Origin: Nitrososphaerota archaeon
GTDB lineage: Archaea; Thermoproteota; Nitrososphaeria; Nitrososphaerales; Nitrosopumilaceae
DNA length: 42,217 bases
Assembly: GCA_028867675.1 (NCBI GenBank)
Contig: JAGWGA010000015.1
Location: forward strand, 1 to 42,217
Direction: 5' to 3'
Notes under the pieces: generated by a model
The model's database searches: none
Told to the model about the DNA's origin: nothing
The model's input: the letters and a program-made list of their open reading frames with translations, nothing else
Part shown: piece after piece, positions 10,835 through 20,127 of the stretch
Position numbering within the stretch: the stretch's first letter is position 1
Layout: each line of letters begins with the position of its first letter
Program-made: the position numbers and the translations under genes

Positions 10835-11977
10835 TTAGGATTTACTTGAAGGATTTTTGAATTCATGCAATCTTTTTAGATGGGATAGCATTCTCTTGAA
10901 GACCTCCACACTTCTTAGAAACTCATCAGTTGATACTCGCTCATCAATTGTGTGTGAAGCATGAGGATCTCCTGGACCATAAGTTACTACTGGAATGTTT
11001 AGTGAATTTCCTATGATGTTCATATCTCCTGTACCTGTCTTTCGAATTAATTGTGGCCGTGCCTTTTCTACATCCATTATTCCAAGTGTTAATGCTCTAA
11101 CAAGTGGAGAACTGTGTGGTGCCTCAAATGGTTCAGTCTCATCTATTACCGAATAAAATGCATTTACTCCTTGTTTTTTTGCTATATCTTGAACTGTAGT
11201 TGCAATTCTCTCACCGACCATTTTACAATTCATGTTAACAGGAATTCGAATATCCATTATTGCATCACATTCTAATGGTGTTACATTGTGACTGGTGCCT
11301 CCCTTTATTTCAGTCAAAGATGAGGTAAGCATCATACTTTTTGCTTTGCCTTCTTGATTGTCTTCTAATGCTTTCTTCAAAGCTGATGTGAAAATATAAG
11401 ATTCTTCAATTGCATTTTTTGCAAGCCATGGCGCACTAGCATGTGCACTATCACCTACGTTTACTCTCAAGTTAATTGCAATTCTTCCCTTGTATGCAAT
11501 TGTAATATTTTTAATTCCACTTGGTTCTCCAAACACTGCATAATCTATATCTGGTTTTTGTTTTACTAGACTTTTAATTCCAGTTGCATTTCCTTCCTCA
11601 TCTACAACTGCTGCAAATGTTATTGTTCCATTGTTTTCATTTTGAACAGAAGCTGTGGCAAGAAGCATTGCAATTAATGGTGCCTTGGCGTCTGATGCAC
11701 CTCTTCCATAAATGTAACCATTTTCATTTCTTACTTTGATTTTTCCAGGTACTGTATCCATATGTCCACATAGCATAATTCTTGGATGGCCTGAACCTTT
11801 TGTTGCAATTAGATTTCCCACATCATCTATACGGATATCCTCAAAGCCAAAATCATCGCATTTGTCTGCTAAAAATTCTGCTAGTGGTTTTTCTGAAAGA
11901 GAAGGAGTATAGAGTCTTAGAGCCTTCTCTAGTACTTTTACTGAATACCTTGGTGTACTTGTTACTGAAGAATCCAA
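10835..11977 (-). CDS. lysK: LysW-lysine/ornithine hydrolase (M20 family)
   Basis: An M20 metallopeptidase-type hydrolase that releases lysine or ornithine from the LysW carrier at the last step of the LysW pathway. Metal ligands and catalytic residues are visible: His72 and Asp74 in GHMDTVP, Asp97 in GRGASDAK, and Glu127-Glu128 in DEEGN; a later His occurs in SAHASAP. The position directly after lysX and in the same block as lysS, lysY, lysZ and lysJ supports LysK over generic ArgE or DapE. The start codon is TTG at 11977, four bases after the lysX stop. In Sulfolobus one LysK serves both lysine and arginine synthesis, and only one copy is seen here. Confidence 0.9.
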   Translation of the reverse strand: MDSSVTSTPRYSVKVLEKALRLYTPSLSEKPLAEFLADKCDDFGFEDIRIDDVGNLIATKGSGHPRIMLCGHMDTVPGKIKVRNENGYIYGRGASDAKAPLIAMLLATASVQNENNGTITFAAVVDEEGNATGIKSLVKQKPDIDYAVFGEPSGIKNITIAYKGRIAINLRVNVGDSAHASAPWLAKNAIEESYIFTSALKKALEDNQEGKAKSMMLTSSLTEIKGGTSHNVTPLECDAIMDIRIPVNMNCKMVGERIATTVQDIAKKQGVNAFYSVIDETEPFEAPHSSPLVRALTLGIMDVEKARPQLIRKTGTGDMNIIGNSLNIPVVTYGPGDPHASHTIDERVSTDEFLRSVEVFKRMLSHLKRLHEFKNPSSKS

Positions 11978-11981
11978 TTTC

Positions 11982-12830
11982 TTATTTTCCTAATTGCATT
12001 GCGTAATCAATCATCATTGCTGGTATATTTACGCCAGTAACTCTGACAGTATTTTTGTATTCCGTTGTATTGTTAACTTCGTGTACTACAAGGCCATTTT
12101 CCTTACTTTCCATGAGATCTACTCCTACTATCTGTCCCTGGACAGCCTCTTTGGCCTTGATGCAAATGTCTTCCAATTCTTTTGTAACTTTAAGCTCCTC
12201 TGCTCTTCCACCTAGTGCCATGTTTGTCTTCCATTGGGATTCCCCTGAATATCGGTAAATTGCAGCAACAACTCTGTCGCCTACAACTATAGCTCTGATA
12301 TCACGCGGTGGTCTGTTTACATATTCTTCCAAATAGTATACTTGGTAAATTGGATACATTGTTTCCCTGCTTTCTATTATGGCCTCTGCAGCCTCTCTGT
12401 CTTTTAACATGGCAATCATTCTTCCCCAGCTACCTACAGTTGGTTTTATGACCATTGGATATCCTTTCTTGTCAAGTAATTCTAGTGCTGCTTCTTGTGA
12501 AAATGCTACAGCACTAAATGGTGTTGGTATTCCTTTTTTTAGCAAAAGCATATGAGTAAATAATTTGTTTCCTGCAAAGATGCTGGTATTCAAAGAATTG
12601 ATTACGTTAACTCCTTTTCCTTCAAGAGCTGCAGTGGAGTGAAGACTACGATAGTAACTCACACATCTTTGTATTACAGTTCCATAATCTTCTGGACTTT
12701 TATCTAAATTAATGGACAGATTCTTACAGTCAACCATCTTTGTATTGATGCCTTTTTCTTTTGCAGCATCAAAGAGTGCTTTTTCTTCCCACCTGATGGT
12801 ATCGTAGAGAATCGATAAACCGGAATTCAC
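11982..12830 (-). CDS. lysX: LysW--aminoadipate ligase (LysX, RimK-like ATP-grasp)
   Basis: A RimK-type ATP-grasp ligase of 282 residues. It joins the alpha-amino group of 2-aminoadipate to the C-terminal residue of LysW, protecting it during lysine synthesis. ATP-grasp landmarks are PMVIKPTVGSWGRMIA, YYLEEYVNRPPRDIRAIVVG and VVHEVNNTTEYKNT. The window holds two such ligases; this one is called LysX because it lies between a LysW gene and lysK and downstream of homocitrate synthase, while the paralogue neighbours argG. This assignment is by context only. The GTG start at 12830 overlaps the TGA stop of the upstream lysW by four bases, indicating translational coupling. Confidence 0.85.
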   Translation of the reverse strand: MNSGLSILYDTIRWEEKALFDAAKEKGINTKMVDCKNLSINLDKSPEDYGTVIQRCVSYYRSLHSTAALEGKGVNVINSLNTSIFAGNKLFTHMLLLKKGIPTPFSAVAFSQEAALELLDKKGYPMVIKPTVGSWGRMIAMLKDREAAEAIIESRETMYPIYQVYYLEEYVNRPPRDIRAIVVGDRVVAAIYRYSGESQWKTNMALGGRAEELKVTKELEDICIKAKEAVQGQIVGVDLMESKENGLVVHEVNNTTEYKNTVRVTGVNIPAMMIDYAMQLGK

Positions 12831-12991
12831 TGGCCCCAGTCCTCACCAACAGATTGTGCTGGTTTAAGATCTAAGCCGGCGGAACCTTTTACGAGTTCAA
12901 AACTTGCACCGCAGTCTGGACAAGTCACTATCTCTCCTTCCATCGAATCTTTTGGAGGGTTGATGTTTGCGTCACATTCTAGACATTTCAT
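12827..12991 (-). CDS. lysW: LysW amino-group carrier protein, variant ending in Gln
   Basis: A 54-residue acidic carrier protein. CLEC near the N-terminus and CPDC at residues 24-27 give the four zinc-binding cysteines of LysW. The C-terminus is VGEDWGQ. Known LysW proteins end in EDWGE, and the gamma-carboxyl of that last Glu is where the amino-acid substrate is attached; here the last codon is CAG (Gln) directly before TGA. The other LysW in this window, at 18761-18928, ends in the normal EDWGE. The stop codon overlaps the lysX GTG start. The ATG at 12991 gives the expected MKCLEC start. Whether this copy can carry substrate is an open question. Confidence 0.9.
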   Translation of the reverse strand: MKCLECDANINPPKDSMEGEIVTCPDCGASFELVKGSAGLDLKPAQSVGEDWGQ

Positions 12992-12992
12992 A

Positions 12993-13073
12993 TTATTTTC
13001 CTGCTTTTTCCTTCACTTTCATGTTATTAATTATCTTTCTATTTCCAAGAAATATTTGGCTAAATGATGACAT
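12993..13073 (-). CDS. Possible 26-residue small protein between lysS and lysW
   Basis: The ORF starts with ATG three bases after the lysS stop (TAG GAA ATG) and ends in TAA one base before the lysW ATG. It therefore fills almost the entire 85-base lysS-lysW spacer. The product begins MSSFSQIFLGNRKIINN and has a basic tail (KVKEKAGK). The exact fit between two genes of an operon is suggestive, but at this length it could arise by chance. A possible role as a coupling or leader peptide is speculative. Conservation of the peptide in related genomes would decide the matter. Confidence 0.4.
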   Translation of the reverse strand: MSSFSQIFLGNRKIINNMKVKEKAGK

Positions 13074-13076
13074 TTC

Positions 13077-14282
13077 CTATTTTCCTTGCTTTGCCTTTTC
13101 TTTTGATTCTATGGTCTTTTCAGAATCGATTATCTTTTGTTCAAGTCTATCATCAAGGGGTATCTCAAGCAAGTCTCCCATTCTTAGGTTCTTCAGGCCA
13201 GCTGCTACTGCCTTTGCATGATCTTCATTTTGTTCAAGGCCTAATAGTGACATTAGATATGCTGCGCCGTTCTTTCCTGCAAGTTCTCCAAAGACAATTC
13301 TCCTTCTATTTCCTACCACTTTGGGTTCGATTGGCTCGTATGCTGCTGGGTTTCTCAATATGGCTGCCAAGTGCGTTCCTGCCTTGTGCTTGTAAGCAGT
13401 AGAGCCTACAATTGGCTTTGAATCATACGGAACTATAGTAGTATACTGTTCAATTAGTCTTGAGAGGTCCATGAGCATGTCTAGTCTGAAATTATTTGGA
13501 GACTCGTACAGATAGGTAAGTGCAACTGCAGTCTCTGCAAGTGAAGGTATTCCAGTTCTCTCTCCAATTCCATCAATTGTTGTATGAATCTGATCTGCTC
13601 CGCCATCACATCCTGCTAATGCGTTTGCTAATGCAAGTCCAATGTCGTTGTGACAGTGCACATCAAGTGGAGTCTTTATTTCATCACGAACTGATTTAAC
13701 AAAATTATACATTCCATTTGGTCTCATTATTCCAACAGTATCAGGTAGGCTGATTCTATCAACACCTGCATCAGAGATTGCTTTGCATACTTGCATTAGA
13801 AATTCTGGGTCTGCTCTTGAACCATCTTCTACCGTAAATCTCATCTTAAGACCATGCGACTTCGCGTATTCTACAGTCTCTACTGATCTTCGTAATGCTT
13901 CTTCTCTTGTAATTCTTAACTTGTCCTTCATGTGTATTTTAGAAATTCCAAGATATGTTGCCATCCATGTTGCATCACAAGCAATTGCAACATCTACATC
14001 TTCTTTTAATGCACGAACATGTGCTACGATATCTGCTTTTAGTCCTTGTTTGATGATTGTCTTTGTTGCTTCCTTGTGATCAGGTGATACAACAGGTGAT
14101 ATCTCAATCTGATCAACACCAAAATAATCAAGCATCCATGCAATTTGGATTCTCTGCTTGTTTGAAAAAGTAACTCCGGGGTGCTGTTCTCCTTCTCTTA
14201 GAGTACTGTCTAGTATTCTAATTTTCTTTGGTTTTACGCCCATCTCATTATACTTGTAAGCATAATAGTTTGCATCGTCCAT
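13077..14282 (-). CDS. lysS: Homocitrate synthase
   Basis: A 401-residue DRE-TIM metallolyase family enzyme. It has the N-terminal LDSTLREGEQHPGVTF, the metal-binding HCHNDIGLALANALAG and the IGERTGIPSLAE segment. It condenses acetyl-CoA with 2-oxoglutarate to homocitrate, the first step of the aminoadipate route to lysine. 2-isopropylmalate synthase is the main alternative; the position at the head of lysW-lysX-lysK and the lack of an LeuA regulatory C-terminal domain support homocitrate synthase. Later enzymes (homoaconitase, homoisocitrate dehydrogenase, LysN) are not in this window. Its upstream region holds a perfect dyad and a TATA-like element. The C-terminus is unusually rich in Lys and Glu. 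Confidence 0.88.
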   Translation of the reverse strand: MDDANYYAYKYNEMGVKPKKIRILDSTLREGEQHPGVTFSNKQRIQIAWMLDYFGVDQIEISPVVSPDHKEATKTIIKQGLKADIVAHVRALKEDVDVAIACDATWMATYLGISKIHMKDKLRITREEALRRSVETVEYAKSHGLKMRFTVEDGSRADPEFLMQVCKAISDAGVDRISLPDTVGIMRPNGMYNFVKSVRDEIKTPLDVHCHNDIGLALANALAGCDGGADQIHTTIDGIGERTGIPSLAETAVALTYLYESPNNFRLDMLMDLSRLIEQYTTIVPYDSKPIVGSTAYKHKAGTHLAAILRNPAAYEPIEPKVVGNRRRIVFGELAGKNGAAYLMSLLGLEQNEDHAKAVAAGLKNLRMGDLLEIPLDDRLEQKIIDSEKTIESKEKAKQGK

Positions 14283-14304
14283 TTCTGATTTTTTCTCTGG
14301 GTTT

Positions 14305-14326
14305 TACGAATATAAACATATTCGTA
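14305..14326. promoter_or_regulatory. 22-bp perfect dyad overlapping the lysS promoter (candidate Lrp/LysM operator)
   Basis: TACGAATAT and ATATTCGTA form perfect nine-base arms around a four-base AAAC spacer. On the lysS strand the centre reads TTTATATT, a plausible TATA box about 33 bases before the lysS ATG, so a protein bound here would cover the promoter. A further ATTCGT half-site follows at 14331-14336. The Lrp-family regulator encoded immediately upstream is the obvious candidate binder, by analogy with Sulfolobus LysM. Confidence 0.6.
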
Positions 14327-14381
14327 CAGAATTCGTCTAGTTTTATCATTTTTGAAACGATTTTAGGCGATTTTCGGATTT

Positions 14382-14402
14382 ATAAAACGAAATACGTTTT
14401 AT
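14382..14402. promoter_or_regulatory. 21-bp perfect dyad at the 3' end of the Lrp gene
   Basis: ATAAAACG and CGTTTTAT are perfect eight-base arms around the spacer AAATA. The element overlaps the last codon region and stop of the Lrp gene (stop at 14399-14401). It could be a second operator for the lysS operon, because it shares the ACGAA/TTCGT core with the downstream dyad, or a hairpin at the end of the argG-to-lrp transcript. Both readings are inference. Confidence 0.5.
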
Positions 14403-14818
14403 GTGACTGTGCGCAATATTATGACTGTATTTGTATCAAATACGCCAGGAACCTTTCGTAATTCATCTATGCATACGTTGATGTCCATTATTGTTGGTGC
14501 TCGAATTATGGTTGCAATGTCATATTGACCAGTTATTTCAAAAACTGTATGTACTCCACGAAGTTTGGAAAGTTTTGCAGATACTTTTGATGTATCAGTT
14601 GATGAATCAACTGAGATCAAAATTATTGCACTGGTAGAATTTGCATCTCCTGTTTCAATTGTAAATTTCTTGATTGTTCCACCATCTGTTAGATTCTTGA
14701 CTCTTCTTCTTACTGCTGATTCTGATAGTCCTAGTTTTTCACCAATCTCTACAAAGGACTGTCTAGAATCTTTTTTTAGCATCTCAATTATTGTCTCGTC
14801 TGTCTTGTCTCTAGACAT
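14399..14818 (-). CDS. Lrp/AsnC family regulator (LysM-like)
   Basis: 139 residues with the standard Lrp layout. An N-terminal helix-turn-helix covers about residues 8-50 (RQSFVEIGEKLGLSESAVRRRVKNL) and a C-terminal ligand-binding RAM domain covers about residues 62-139. In Sulfolobus the Lrp-type LysM controls the lysine operon in response to lysine. Here the gene is the last of the argG-lysW-argX-lysY-lysZ-lysJ string and sits just before the lysS operon, so a role in controlling lysine and arginine synthesis is likely but inferred. Its ATG overlaps the end of lysJ by eight bases. The dyads at 14305-14326 and 14382-14402 are candidate binding sites. Confidence 0.88.
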   Translation of the reverse strand: MSRDKTDETIIEMLKKDSRQSFVEIGEKLGLSESAVRRRVKNLTDGGTIKKFTIETGDANSTSAIILISVDSSTDTSKVSAKLSKLRGVHTVFEITGQYDIATIIRAPTIMDINVCIDELRKVPGVFDTNTVIILRTVT

Positions 14819-15986
14819 TTCTTCTCTTTTCCTCCTTTGTTAGTATCATATCTAAAGTTTCTAATGCTTTGTTTATGTCAGACTCTGATATCACCAGAGG
14901 TGGCAATAATCGTAGTATGTTTTTGCCTGAATAAAGCAATAATAAATTATTTGCAATTCCGTCAAATAAAATGTCTTTTACCTCAAACTTCATCTCAACA
15001 CCAATCATCAAACCTTTTCCTCTTACCTCTCGGATGATCTTGTGTTTTTCTTTTAGTCTCTCTAACCCTTCCCTGAATATCTTTCCATTCTTTTCTGCAT
15101 TCTCAACTAGCTTGTCTTCTACTAACGTATCAATGGCTCCAATTCCTGCAGCACATGATAATGGATTACCGCCAAATGTTGATGATTGCTCTCCCTTGCT
15201 AATTGTGGCCAAAATGTCTGGTCTTACAAGAGTTGCACCCATTGGTACACCGCCCGCAATTCCTTTTGCAAGACACATTATATCAGGTACAGTATCCCAG
15301 TGCTGACATGCCCACATTTTTCCAGTTCTTCCAAGGCCTGCCTGGATTTCATCAAATACTAGAACAATTCCCTTTTCATCACATAGTTTTCTGACTTGTT
15401 GCAAAAACCCATCTGGTGCTACATTGATTCCGCTTTCTCCCTGGATTGGCTCTAAAATTACCATTGCAGTGTCAGAATCTGCTACAGAACGCAATGCCTC
15501 GATATCTCCATATGATGAGAAGTTGACTGTATCAACAAGTGGCTCAAATGCCTTGCGATATTTTTGATTAAATGTAACTGATAATGCACCTAATGATTTT
15601 CCATGGTATGATCCATTCATCGCCACCATCTTTTTCTTTCCTGTGAACTTGCGTGCAAACTTGATTGCGGCTTCGACTGCTTCTGTTCCACTGTTGTTTA
15701 GGTATACTTGGCTGAGATTTTTTGGAGCAATTTTTATCAGTTTTTCAAGAAATGTTTCTCTTGTTTTATTATATAATGAACTGTGTACTGTGATGATTTT
15801 GTCAAGCTGTTCTTTTATTGCTTTTACAACTCTAGGATTGCAGTGGCCAACCAGAGCTACACCATATCCTCCCATACAATCAATGTACTCTTTTCCATTT
15901 GCATCCCATACATGAGCTCCCAGTCCACGCTCTATTGTTACAGGAAATCTCTGGTAGATATTTCCCATGAATTGATCTTCAGTCAT
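14811..15986 (-). CDS. lysJ: LysW-lysine/ornithine aminotransferase
   Basis: A class III PLP aminotransferase of the ArgD/LysJ type that converts the LysW-bound semialdehyde to LysW-lysine or LysW-ornithine. Visible landmarks are YIDCMGGYGVALVGHCNP, VFDEIQAGLGRTGKMWA and the PLP-lysine segment LAKGIAGGVPMGA. The ATG at 15986 is preferred over the in-frame ATG at 16004: it overlaps the lysZ stop as ATGA and has a GGTGAT motif about eight bases upstream. Only one such aminotransferase is seen in the window, which agrees with one enzyme serving both pathways as in Sulfolobus. Confidence 0.9.
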   Translation of the reverse strand: MTEDQFMGNIYQRFPVTIERGLGAHVWDANGKEYIDCMGGYGVALVGHCNPRVVKAIKEQLDKIITVHSSLYNKTRETFLEKLIKIAPKNLSQVYLNNSGTEAVEAAIKFARKFTGKKKMVAMNGSYHGKSLGALSVTFNQKYRKAFEPLVDTVNFSSYGDIEALRSVADSDTAMVILEPIQGESGINVAPDGFLQQVRKLCDEKGIVLVFDEIQAGLGRTGKMWACQHWDTVPDIMCLAKGIAGGVPMGATLVRPDILATISKGEQSSTFGGNPLSCAAGIGAIDTLVEDKLVENAEKNGKIFREGLERLKEKHKIIREVRGKGLMIGVEMKFEVKDILFDGIANNLLLLYSGKNILRLLPPLVISESDINKALETLDMILTKEEKRRNV

Positions 15987-16783
15987 TTTGATATCACCGT
16001 ACATTTATTGTGAGCAATTGCAGTAGATATTGGGTTTTCCTTTTTACCGTTTGCAATTAAAGCCTCTTTGACTCCCATTTCTAATGCTTCTGTTGCAGCA
16101 AGTATCTTCTTTTCCATTCCAAATCCAATCTTTGGCAAGATCTCTTTTGCCTCTGCTAGAGATAATTTTTCAACTAGTTTATCGTCCATAAGTAATCCAT
16201 CCACATTTGTAAGAAATAATATCTTATCTGAATTCATCTTGCCTGCTACATATGCAGCCGCTCTATCTCCATCAACATTGAGAAAATCACACTCCTCACT
16301 AATTGCAATTGGGGATATCACTGGAACATATCCTTGGTCTAATATTGAGCGAATCAATGGTGCGTTAACATCCTGAATTTTTCCCGTATATCCTCCATCT
16401 ATTATCATCTTGCGACCCTTTTCATTCATGACCATCAGTTTCTTTTTTCGCTCTGCCTGGATTATTTTTCCATCTACTCCCGAAAGGCCAACTGCGTTGA
16501 TTCCGTGTTTTTGAAGCATTCCAACTATCATCTTGTTTATTTTTCCAGACATGACCATAGTGAATATCTCTGCAGTCTCCTTGTCTGTGAATCTACTTTT
16601 AATTCCGCCAGGAGATACAATGAATTTTTGTTCTTTTCCTAATGCTTCTGAGATTTTAGTAACTTCTTTTCCTCCACCGTGAACCAAAATTAATTTCTCT
16701 TTCTCTGAAACTTTCTTTAGGTCTGTTATGGTGGTAGGATGAAGACCATCTACTACACTTCCTCCTATTTTTATTGTAATCAT
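15983..16783 (-). CDS. lysZ: LysW-aminoadipate/glutamate kinase
   Basis: A 266-residue amino-acid kinase family protein (ArgB-like) that phosphorylates the side-chain carboxyl of LysW-bound aminoadipate or glutamate. The N-terminal ITIKIGGSVVDG and LVHGGGKEV glycine motifs bind ATP, and FLNVDGDRAAAYVA is the typical substrate-side segment. The gene lies four bases after lysY and its stop overlaps the lysJ start (ATGA), so the three are tightly coupled. The absence of a second kinase supports dual use in lysine and arginine synthesis; this is inferred from gene content. Confidence 0.9.
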   Translation of the reverse strand: MITIKIGGSVVDGLHPTTITDLKKVSEKEKLILVHGGGKEVTKISEALGKEQKFIVSPGGIKSRFTDKETAEIFTMVMSGKINKMIVGMLQKHGINAVGLSGVDGKIIQAERKKKLMVMNEKGRKMIIDGGYTGKIQDVNAPLIRSILDQGYVPVISPIAISEECDFLNVDGDRAAAYVAGKMNSDKILFLTNVDGLLMDDKLVEKLSLAEAKEILPKIGFGMEKKILAATEALEMGVKEALIANGKKENPISTAIAHNKCTVISK

Positions 16784-16787
16784 CTTT

Positions 16788-17840
16788 TTACACAGGAGTT
16801 AGCGGAGTCTGTGCGATTCCGTCCATCTCGTTGAATCCTGCCATGACATTCATGTTTTGAATGGCAGAACCTGCTGCACCTTTCATAAGGTTGTCTGATG
16901 CTGAAAGAACTACAACTCTATTGTTGTCTTCGTCAATATCAAATCCAACATCACAGAAGTTAGAGCCTACGACAAACTTTGGATCTGGGAATTTGTAAAA
17001 TCCTTTCTTATCACGTATTAGTCTGACAAACTTTTCGTTTTGATATTGTTCACGATATATCTTCCACAAATCCATTTCACTTAGTGGCTGTTTGAGAAAT
17101 ACGTGATTTGTACAGAGAATTCCTCTTACGATATCTACTGCATGAGGACTCATTGATACTTTGATTTTATTTCCAGCAGCTTGTGACAACTCTTGCTCAA
17201 TTTCTCCAGTGTGTCTGTGCTTTGCTGGCTTGTATGGTCTGATTACACCTGATCTCATTGCATGATGAGTTCCTGAAACAGTTCCTGCACCTGCACCTGA
17301 AGAACCAATCTTTGAATCAACTATGATATGTTCAGTATCGATGAGATTCTTTTTGATTAAAGGATACAATCCAAGAATCGATGTTACTGCCATGCATCCG
17401 GGACATGATACAAGCTGAGATTTTTTGATCTCTTCTCTGTGAAGTTCTGGAACTCCAAATACTGACTTTGCTAATAGTTCTGGATGAGGGTGTTGCCAAC
17501 CATACCATTTGTCATAATCTGCAGCATTGTGCAATCGGTAATCTGCACTCAAATCAATTACTTTCATTCCTCTGTCATATAGTGCTTTTACAATGTCAAC
17601 CGCAGTTCCATGTGGTACTGCGGTAAATACTAGATCACACTTGTCTGTTAGTTTATCATAATCAAGTTCTGAAAATGTCAAGTCGGTAAATCCTTTCAAG
17701 CCTGGTTGGATTCTTGATATGTATTCCCCAACATATTGTCTTGAAGTTACCATGGAAATTTCTGCATGTGGATGGCTTACAAGTAATCTGAGAATTTCTC
17801 CTCCGACATAACCTGATGCTCCAACTACACCAACTTTCAT
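16788..17840 (-). CDS. lysY: LysW-aminoadipyl/glutamyl phosphate reductase
   Basis: A 350-residue ArgC-type dehydrogenase. It has the N-terminal NADPH-binding motif VGASGYVGGEILRLL, the catalytic Cys149 in SCPGCMAVTS and the HRHTGEIEQEL segment. It reduces the acyl-phosphate made by LysZ to the semialdehyde used by LysJ. It lies between argX and lysZ on the same strand. About 62 bases separate it from the upstream argX gene, the longest gap within this operon, and that gap is AT-rich enough to hold an internal promoter, although none is clear. Confidence 0.9.
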   Translation of the reverse strand: MKVGVVGASGYVGGEILRLLVSHPHAEISMVTSRQYVGEYISRIQPGLKGFTDLTFSELDYDKLTDKCDLVFTAVPHGTAVDIVKALYDRGMKVIDLSADYRLHNAADYDKWYGWQHPHPELLAKSVFGVPELHREEIKKSQLVSCPGCMAVTSILGLYPLIKKNLIDTEHIIVDSKIGSSGAGAGTVSGTHHAMRSGVIRPYKPAKHRHTGEIEQELSQAAGNKIKVSMSPHAVDIVRGILCTNHVFLKQPLSEMDLWKIYREQYQNEKFVRLIRDKKGFYKFPDPKFVVGSNFCDVGFDIDEDNNRVVVLSASDNLMKGAAGSAIQNMNVMAGFNEMDGIAQTPLTPV

Positions 17841-17902
17841 TGATACTCTCCTACCATAACATAGTATAATTTAAACTCTAAAATTTTTTTCAAATGTTGC
17901 GA

Positions 17903-18760
17903 TTATCGTTTTGCATAGCTTATCGCGTAATCGATCATTTCTTTTGGGATGTTTTTTTTGGCAACTTTTGCCATTCCCTTGAATTCTACCGTATTATTTA
18001 CTTCATGAACTACAAATCCACGTTTTTCATCTTCCATGACGTCAATACCTAAAATTCCTCCTCCTACGGCCTTGGATGCTTTCATGCAAATGTCTTCCAA
18101 CTCCTTTGTAATCTCACATGCAATTGGTTCTGCACCTAGGGCAATGTTTGTCTTAAAGCCACCAGTTGAGGTTCTATACATTGCAGCGATTAACTGGTCT
18201 CCTACAGATATGGCACGAATGTCTCTTGGTGGACGGTTTATCATCTCTTGTAAATAGTAAATTCTGTCTAATGTCCCATCATTTAGTTCTCGGACTTCGA
18301 TTATTGCATCTGCAGTCTCTCTGTCTCTTAGAGGTATTACGCCTCTTCCCCAACTGCCTATGATTGGTTTTATCACCAGGGGATATCCTACTTTTTCTAA
18401 TGTCTCAATTGCTGCCTCTGAAGAGAATGAAAAATATGTTTTAGGAGTTGGTACATTATGCTTCCTTAACAATAATGATGTAATCATCTTGTTTCCACAA
18501 TTATTTGCAACCTCGGTTCTGTTTAATACTGGAATATCTAAAAATTCAAGAGCTGCTGTAAAATGAAGACCACGAAAGTAACTTACACATCTTTCTAAAA
18601 CGACATCTCCAAAATCATAATCGTTTTTTTTACTTTCGGTGGTAAATTGAGTTGTTTTTGCGTCAATCATCTTCGTATCGTGTCCAAGCTCGATTGCTTT
18701 TTGCTCGAGCATTTTTTCCTCAAGTCTTACTCTGTCGAACACGATTCGAACTTTGGGCAT
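17903..18760 (-). CDS. argX: LysW--glutamate ligase (ArgX, RimK-like ATP-grasp)
   Basis: A 285-residue paralogue of the ligase at 11982-12830, sharing VIKPIIGSWGRGVIP, YYLQEMINRPPRDIRAISVG and FVVHEVNNTVEFKG. ArgX attaches glutamate to LysW to begin ornithine and arginine synthesis. It is assigned ArgX rather than LysX because it sits with argG and its own lysW, while the other copy sits with homocitrate synthase; sequence alone, as read here, does not decide specificity. The ATG at 18760 directly abuts the TAA stop of the upstream lysW gene. Confidence 0.85.
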   Translation of the reverse strand: MPKVRIVFDRVRLEEKMLEQKAIELGHDTKMIDAKTTQFTTESKKNDYDFGDVVLERCVSYFRGLHFTAALEFLDIPVLNRTEVANNCGNKMITSLLLRKHNVPTPKTYFSFSSEAAIETLEKVGYPLVIKPIIGSWGRGVIPLRDRETADAIIEVRELNDGTLDRIYYLQEMINRPPRDIRAISVGDQLIAAMYRTSTGGFKTNIALGAEPIACEITKELEDICMKASKAVGGGILGIDVMEDEKRGFVVHEVNNTVEFKGMAKVAKKNIPKEMIDYAISYAKR

Positions 18761-18928
18761 TTACTCTCCCCAATCTTCGCCAACTTTCTCAGCATGTTTT
18801 AATTCGCATGCGGCGCCATTCTTAGAAGCAATCTCGAAATCTGCCCCACAATCAGGACACGAGACTATCTCTCCAACACTTGCGTCGTCTGGAATTTTTA
18901 TTGTTGCATCACATTCTGGACAATTCAT
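18761..18928 (-). CDS. lysW: LysW amino-group carrier protein, canonical EDWGE ending
   Basis: A 55-residue carrier protein with four zinc-binding cysteines (CPEC at residues 3-6 and CPDC at 24-27) and the canonical C-terminus VGEDWGE, whose last Glu receives the substrate. Placed between argG and argX, it is probably the carrier for glutamate and the arginine branch, and it could serve the lysine branch as well. It is shorter than the usual ORF-length cut-off and easily missed. The start is ATG at 18928, eleven bases after the argG stop. Confidence 0.93.
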   Translation of the reverse strand: MNCPECDATIKIPDDASVGEIVSCPDCGADFEIASKNGAACELKHAEKVGEDWGE

Positions 18929-18939
18929 ATTTGATCATT

Positions 18940-20127
18940 TCACCTCTTTTTTAGTAATTTATTAGCTTCTGTTGATTGAAGTCCCCACAGCTCAACGAAT
19001 CCTTTTCCAAGAGTTTGGTCAAAAGTAGAACCAGAACCATATGTTGCCAAGTCATGACTGTACAATGAATATTCTGATTTTCTTCCAACAACTCTTAGGC
19101 TTCCTTTGAACATTTTGAGCTTTACAGATCCGCTAACCCTCTTCTGGGTAGCATTGATAAACATATCTAAATCTGTTTTCAACGGATCTTGCCATAATCC
19201 AGAATATGCTAACCAAGACCATTCTGCATCAACCATTGCTTTGAATTTTAATTCATGTTTTGTTAAAACCATTTTTTCAAGATCTGTATGTGCCTCAATT
19301 ATACACGAAGCGCCGGGTGTCTCGTAAACCTCTCTTGATTTTATCCCAACAACTCTATCTTCGATATGGTCTACAATCCCTATTCCATTTGCACCCGCTT
19401 TTTTGTTGATATGTTTGATTAGTTCAATTGGTTTCATGCGTTTTCCATCAGCTGCAACAGGAATTCCATTTTCAAATTTAATTTCCAAGTATTGCGGTTT
19501 GTCTGGCAAGTTCTTTGTCTTGACCCAGATGAATGCATCATCTGGCGGTTCTGAGAATGCATCTTCCATGTCTCCACCTTCTATTGCTCTTCCCCACAAG
19601 TTTTGATCTATACTGAACTTCTTGGCTGTTGTATCGATTGGAATCTTGTGTTTTTGTGCATACTTTAGTTCTACATAACGTGTTAGATTTAGATCACGTA
19701 TTGGTGCAATAATTGGTAAATTAGAACCAGAACGATATGTCACATCAAATCTTACTTGATCATTTCCTTTGCCTGTGCAACCATGAGCTAATGCTGACGC
19801 ACTTTCTTTTTTTGCAACTTCAACTACTTTTTGTGCAATTAATGGTCGTGCAAGTGCTGTTGCTAGACAATATTTCTTTTGATATAGTGCATTTGCTTTG
19901 ATTGCTGGAAAGATGAAACTGTCTACAAATTCTTGTCGTGCATCTATATTGTAATGTTTTAAAACGCCAAGACTTTTTGCTTTGGATGAAATCTTTGCAA
20001 GATTATCTTCTTGACCTACATCCACTGTAACTGTTACAACATCTAGATTGTGTTTTTCTTGGAGATATTTTATGACAACTGAAGTATCTAGTCCGCCAGA
20101 GAAAGCTAGAACTGCTTTTCCTTTCAT
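18940..20127 (-). CDS. argG: Argininosuccinate synthase
   Basis: A 395-residue argininosuccinate synthase that joins citrulline and aspartate with ATP in arginine synthesis. The PP-loop AFSGGLDTSVVIKYL is at the N-terminus, followed by TVDVGQE and ALAHGCTGKGNDQVRFD. It is the first gene of the leftward argG-lysW-argX-lysY-lysZ-lysJ-lrp operon. Argininosuccinate lyase is not in the window. Upstream, about 30 bases before the ATG, an ATAAATGC element (20153-20160) may serve as the TATA box. The gene is divergent from the ABC transporter. Confidence 0.96.
   Translation of the reverse strand: MKGKAVLAFSGGLDTSVVIKYLQEKHNLDVVTVTVDVGQEDNLAKISSKAKSLGVLKHYNIDARQEFVDSFIFPAIKANALYQKKYCLATALARPLIAQKVVEVAKKESASALAHGCTGKGNDQVRFDVTYRSGSNLPIIAPIRDLNLTRYVELKYAQKHKIPIDTTAKKFSIDQNLWGRAIEGGDMEDAFSEPPDDAFIWVKTKNLPDKPQYLEIKFENGIPVAADGKRMKPIELIKHINKKAGANGIGIVDHIEDRVVGIKSREVYETPGASCIIEAHTDLEKMVLTKHELKFKAMVDAEWSWLAYSGLWQDPLKTDLDMFINATQKRVSGSVKLKMFKGSLRVVGRKSEYSLYSHDLATYGSGSTFDQTLGKGFVELWGLQSTEANKLLKKR

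Follow-up and report, generated by a model that had tools for sequence, protein, structure and literature searches.

In the LysW-dependent routes to lysine and arginine, the ligases LysX and ArgX attach the amine of their substrate to the γ-carboxyl of the last Glu of LysW, and the E54A change in haloarchaeal ArgW abolishes arginine synthesis and results in arginine auxotrophy (PMC10433800). How could a LysW protein whose gene encodes Gln at that position work as a carrier? The question is raised by the window, that is, the whole stretch of 42,217 nucleotides analysed here, in which the initial annotation had described two LysW genes, an EDWGE copy next to argG and an apparently intact EDWGQ copy (CAG followed by TGA) next to lysS/lysX, and had considered the terminal Gln to be at odds with the described chemistry of LysW. 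The translations agree with this description, both genes being located on the minus strand, and the conflict with the chemistry is a real one, as the published carriers use the γ-carboxyl (PMC10433800). On the minus strand, the order of the genes is argG, lysW-E, argX, lysY, lysZ, lysJ, lysM, homocitrate synthase, lysW-Q, lysX and lysK, in a cluster that extends over positions 10835-20127:

10835..11977, minus strand: lysK, M20-type [LysW]-lysine/ornithine hydrolase, candidate for removal of the Gln amide
11982..12830, minus strand: lysX, ATP-grasp ligase of the LysX/RimK family, AAA-type signature EYKNT, GSWGR intact
12827..12991, minus strand: lysW-Q, zinc-ribbon amino-group carrier of 54 aa with an EDWGQ end (translation, NF041070, Pfam)
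12830..12832, minus strand: terminal Gln codon CAG of lysW-Q, followed by the TGA stop
13077..14282, minus strand: homocitrate synthase, LysS-like, below the curated cut-offs, with IPMS and LysS as best subfamily matches
14399..14818, minus strand: lysM, Lrp-type regulator of lysine biosynthesis
14811..16004, minus strand: lysJ/argD aminotransferase, the one copy in the cluster, probably common to both carriers
15983..16783, minus strand: lysZ, [LysW]-aminoadipate/[LysW]-glutamate kinase, probably common to both carriers
16788..17840, minus strand: lysY/argC reductase, probably common to both carriers
17903..18760, minus strand: argX, ATP-grasp ligase, Glu-type signature EFKGM, GSWGR intact
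18761..18928, minus strand: lysW-E, second carrier, with an EDWGE end
18940..20127, minus strand: argG, argininosuccinate synthase (translation; its placement relative to lysW-E is kept in related loci)

The lysW-Q gene (12827-12991, minus strand) translates as MKCLECDANINPPKDSMEGEIVTCPDCGASFELVKGSAGLDLKPAQSVGEDWGQ followed by the stop, and the last base of its CAG codon is the first base of the GTG start of lysX, in a GTGA overlap with the TGA stop. The intactness of the gene was confirmed by the cut-offs of the NCBIfam carrier model NF041070 (80.4 bits, cut-off 75, model positions 3-57 of 57) and of the Pfam family Zn_ribbon_LysW, PF21344 (46 bits, cut-off 27), both of which it passes; with TIGR01206 (cut-off 53.2), LysW-Q (30.6) and likewise LysW-E (44.4) score below the cut-off. 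Both Cys pairs of the zinc ribbon are present, one as CLEC close to the N-terminus and the other as CPDC midway along the protein, and the gene is linked to those of LysX/ArgX and of the LysZYJK enzymes. When compared with the LysW/ArgW carriers of Thermus, Sulfolobus, Thermococcus and haloarchaea (NF041070; PDB 3VPB, 3WWL, 5K2M), LysW-Q shares the length, the Cys pairs, the GEDWG tail and the operon company of LysX, LysY, LysZ, LysJ and LysK, with a ligase that contains GSWGR, but it ends in Gln. The family hallmark, EDWGE with a terminal Glu, is thus EDWGQ at gene level and, because of this last residue, the substrate-accepting γ-carboxyl is not encoded. The GSWGR motif of the ligases has been described as recognising the EDWGE of the carrier, and it is the motif containing the EYKNT or EFKGM signature that, in Sulfolobus, determines whether aminoadipate (Asn-Thr) or glutamate (Gly-Phe) is preferred (PMC10433800). 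No LysW gene other than lysW-Q and lysW-E was found in the whole draft genome (97.5% complete), where two extra search matches with E of about 0.5 were noise.

In what follows, f2 corresponds to Nitrosocaldaceae and f8 to Nitrososphaeraceae, and f1 is taken to be Nitrosopumilaceae from its placement beside these two, the Cenarchaeum match of genome G015 and its gene content. Because Glu becomes Gln by one base (GAG to CAG), the terminus could be read as a sequencing error or as the isolated base change that the initial annotation had contemplated. The probability of this is negligible, since the EDWGQ copy is present in 43 of the 44 Nitrosopumilaceae genomes of one survey (in the remaining one, G143, both copies end in Glu) and Gln is found in many independent assemblies. 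The pattern EDWG(E/Q)-stop matched in 190 of 200 genomes of this family, among which a single lysX-linked copy with Glu-TGA was found (G143), and an argX-linked Gln was also seen once in the family (G045). Whether the lysX-linked copy ends in Glu in relatives, as had been asked, has a divided answer: Gln is nearly fixed in Nitrosopumilaceae, but Glu is found in f3, in f2-g50 and in g53 and g57 of Nitrososphaeraceae. The Gln codon in Nitrosopumilaceae has the context CAG-TGA, its G opening the overlapping GTG of lysX, and the wobble base of the preceding codon varies freely. Nitrososphaeraceae also keep the Gln as CAA followed by TAA or TAG, without a lysX overlap, which indicates that Gln is conserved at the level of the protein and not merely of the DNA. 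The overlap with the lysX start codon was rejected as the cause of Gln on these grounds and because GAG-TGA would yield an identical GTG overlap, so that the overlap does not force the C. As a separate observation, EDWG mostly begins with the codon GAG in GTGA overlaps of lysW and lysX (30 of 37 with Gln, 15 of 22 with Glu), and GAA dominates where there is no overlap; at 12827-12844 and in relatives, this GAG codon creates an in-gene GAGG that could be a putative ribosome-binding site for lysX.

The Gln terminus extends to Nitrosocaldus, Nitrososphaeraceae, other families of Thermoproteota, Jordarchaeia, Undinarchaeales and one bacterium. Within the order of the window genome, the termini of the LysX-linked and the ArgX-linked copy, given in this order, are:

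f1: Q/E
f2-g23: Q/E
f2-g50 and f3: E/E
f8-g44: Q/E
f8-g51 and g41: Q/Q
f8-g53 and g57: E/Q, reversed
f8-g29: one LysW, Q, sharing a single operon with the two ligases
f4-f7 and f9-f16: E in every genome read

Beyond the order, a single Gln-ended LysW occurs in f25 (g67 and part of g94), f30 (g73, g123) and f48, where two genomes of the same genus differ (G414 with Gln, G379 with Glu). Among the named loci, Gln is also found in Jordarchaeia, in Undinarchaeales/UBA55 and in a Thiotrichaceae bacterium that has a lysWXYZJ cluster. Pattern matches in Clostridia, Planctomycetota and others came with neither LysW nor pathway genes and were treated as chance, and a search of plasmids returned just ordinary bacterial LysW annotations. 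The idea that Gln is exclusive to lysX-linked copies had to be abandoned, as argX-linked and single LysW copies end in Gln too, an independence from lysX that the earlier reading had missed. Some Nitrosopumilaceae have orphan copies of LysW at a distance from the lys/arg genes, with neighbours that appear unrelated to the pathway; these copies are Glu-ended in L133 (G018 C37:34218) and L136 (G001 C1:1467880) and Gln-ended in Cenarchaeum (L203/L227, L151). In addition, the ligase tree places the lys loci of L188 and L200, labelled Nitrosopumilus (MGR_bin297, MGR_bin428), together with those of Nitrosocosmicus, and mislabelling or mis-binning of these contigs is possible.

The last residue is under strong restriction. 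The loci contain 218 distinct LysW HMM matches, for some of which, found by the Gln pattern, a restriction to Glu or Gln is partly built in; 214 of them end in EDWG plus one residue, which is Glu in 114 and Gln in 100, counts that differ from population frequencies because the named loci with Gln came from that pattern. The remaining four are two EDYGE and two divergent or low-complexity sequences. The loci found by HMM alone agree with the rule of Glu or Gln only, which holds although several other residues lie one base away. On a tree of 138 ligases, at least 15 changes between the two states are needed, and strongly supported branches make at least 10 of these unavoidable. Across 11 contrasts between Gln and Glu, no ligase residue was found to be consistent for either state; every column conserved in the Gln-linked set and in the Glu-linked set shows one residue common to the two, the catalytic columns are identical, and the top-ranked columns of the ligase and of LysK are either variable positions close to a chain end or fast-evolving in some other way. 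The GSWGR motif is present in 111 of 113 Gln-linked and in all 64 Glu-linked ligases, and Gln-ended carriers are paired with AAA-type (67) as well as Glu-type ligases (42). To judge from these alignments, the ligase acts as if it were seeing a single substrate. In LysK, no column tracking the terminus was found in the few contrasts available, and H/D/E residues of the M20 metal-site type, which in M20 enzymes are metal ligands, are conserved across the loci.

The combination of HMM-based LysW counts with the counts of Gln termini revealed at least 29 genomes without a Glu-ended LysW. A single LysW is found in 8 genomes of g29 (Nitrosocosmicus-type operon), 8 of f25, 4 of f30 and 1 of f48, and two copies, both Gln-ended, in 7 of g51 (Nitrososphaera) and 1 of g41; all these genomes retain ligase genes, which lie next to the carrier gene or not far from it. 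ArgJ was absent in all 23 genomes with Gln that were tested, including 14 of the 29, and all 23 were positive for LysK. It follows from the genomes with Gln only and from the absence of ArgJ that LysW with a Gln end has to function as a carrier, for arginine at the least, barring an unrecognised route. As regards lysine, LysA gave no match in the window genome nor in f25, f30 and f48, and a LysA-like protein under the curated cut-off is present in f2-g23, Nitrososphaera, Nitrosocosmicus and g41, which may make lysine via DAP. In G282 (C43:13702-14723), LysK is split into two overlapping frames, possibly by an assembly frameshift.

Taken together, the sequence comparisons suggest that the EDWGQ protein is probably a functional carrier whose Gln becomes Glu or acyl-Glu after translation by the action of an enzyme of the pathway itself, with LysK as the leading candidate and the ligase as the second. 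LysK normally hydrolyses the γ-glutamyl amide bond that joins LysW to lysine or ornithine. The side chain of Gln would offer LysK this same bond, with ammonia as the leaving group. The removal or exchange of the amide would produce the LysW-γ-Glu terminus (or the acyl-phosphate), the normal substrate of LysX/ArgX, so that LysZ, LysY, LysJ and LysK would work unchanged and Gln and Glu would be interchangeable at gene level. A single deamidation per molecule, even a slow one, would suffice, given that LysW is recycled. The restriction to Glu or Gln, their interchangeability and a ligase blind to the difference would all be expected if Gln becomes Glu, and deamidation would be the best-supported of the escapes contemplated by the initial annotation. 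The presence of LysK does not discriminate, because LysK also accompanies Glu-ended LysW, and its candidacy is a matter of chemistry, since none of its columns tracks the terminus. In short, we infer substrate carriage by LysW-Q, its deamidation and the enzyme responsible. Free interchange fails to explain why in Nitrosopumilaceae, almost without exception, the lysX-linked copy has Gln and the argX-linked copy Glu; a specific role of Gln, either to delay loading until the carrier meets LysK or to keep the two carriers apart, is possible.

A known case of an encoded Gln is Pup, which in mycobacteria is made with a terminal Gln that Dop, also the hydrolase of the isopeptide bond, deamidates to Glu (PMC7947786). 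Like LysW, Pup is a short protein in which the side chain of a C-terminal Glu is joined to an amine and which is encoded with Gln in some species (PMC7947786), and in the relatives of LysW-Q the two residues have replaced each other in the switches counted above. Unlike this case, LysW is an unrelated protein, and the folds of its ligase and hydrolase differ (ATP-grasp and M20). The search for Dop/PafA homologues (PF03136) was negative in 23 of 23 genomes with Gln and positive in the control, Corynebacterium glutamicum. LysW-Q is not a member of the Pup/Dop system but may work in a similar manner.

Other explanations of the Gln have to be weighed against conversion within the pathway. It is unlikely, though conceivable, that LysX/ArgX use the Gln directly, attacking its amide with phosphate (ADP + Pi) to free ammonia and pass the acyl-phosphate to aminoadipate or glutamate. 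Such an attack is amide synthesis in reverse, and we know of no ATP-grasp ligase that uses Gln in this way. With no deamidase or other additional enzyme required, direct use would suit the sporadic spread over unrelated lineages and the catalytic columns shared by both sets of ligases, and an engineered Dop/PafA hybrid does join PupQ directly (PMC7947786); against it, no ligase residue follows the terminus in the 11 contrasts. Dop is also the functional precedent (PMC7947786) for a dedicated or general protein-glutamine deamidase that would mature LysW-Q from outside the lys/arg cluster, and the three families of ammonia oxidisers represented in these genomes (f1, f2, f8), all with Gln, could share such an enzyme. 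This is quite unlikely, given that no member of the Pup ligase/Dop family is encoded in the 23 genomes, that Gln is scattered across several archaeal groups and one bacterium, and that no candidate was seen conserved next to the Gln-ended copies.

The idea of the initial annotation that both ligases use the Glu copy does not hold as a general explanation, in view of the 29 genomes with Gln only. In the window genome itself, it would make LysW-Q a regulatory or decoy paralogue, which is very unlikely. In Sulfolobus, one LysW serves both ligases; the window genome has a Glu-ended copy, and G023, the mirror of the genomes with Gln only, has lost lysW-Q and apparently manages on a single, Glu-ended LysW, with an open lysX frame directly after homocitrate synthase. 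However, the genomes with Gln only and the argX-linked Gln copies suggest that the Gln form can be the sole carrier, and nearly every Nitrosopumilaceae genome retains it. At the G023 locus (L303, C1:1771000-1778000), lysX follows homocitrate synthase with no lysW-Q in between, and repeats of AAAAAPPKAGKGG form the end of the homocitrate synthase frame instead. Less probable still is the loading of the main-chain α-carboxylate of LysW-Q, with an irrelevant side chain. A terminal Gln retains a free α-carboxylate, and an ordinary peptide bond is chemically simple. This escape, also raised by the initial annotation, is disfavoured by the strict restriction to Glu or Gln in 214 sequences, where an α-linkage should tolerate other residues, by the single set of LysZ, LysY, LysJ and LysK that serves both carriers of the same cluster, and by the use of the γ-carboxyl in the published carriers (PMC10433800).

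With conversion by a pathway enzyme as the preferred reading, a broader proposal can be made, for and against which the evidence is evenly balanced: LysW may be the second system after Pup with an encoded C-terminal Gln as a pro-form, either deamidated by LysK or loaded by the ATP-grasp ligase through ammonia exchange. No report of a Gln-ended LysW was found in the open-access literature, subscription papers being outside the search, and the lysine and arginine routes of ammonia-oxidising archaea have been completed on the model of Sulfolobus (PMC6038301). In these archaea, as in several further lineages, the residue that is described as making LysW a carrier, the terminal Glu, is encoded as Gln, and the Gln copy is often the only LysW of the cell, so that some uncharacterised step must handle Gln before or during loading. 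Because several of the ammonia-oxidising archaea are in culture, this missing step is directly testable.
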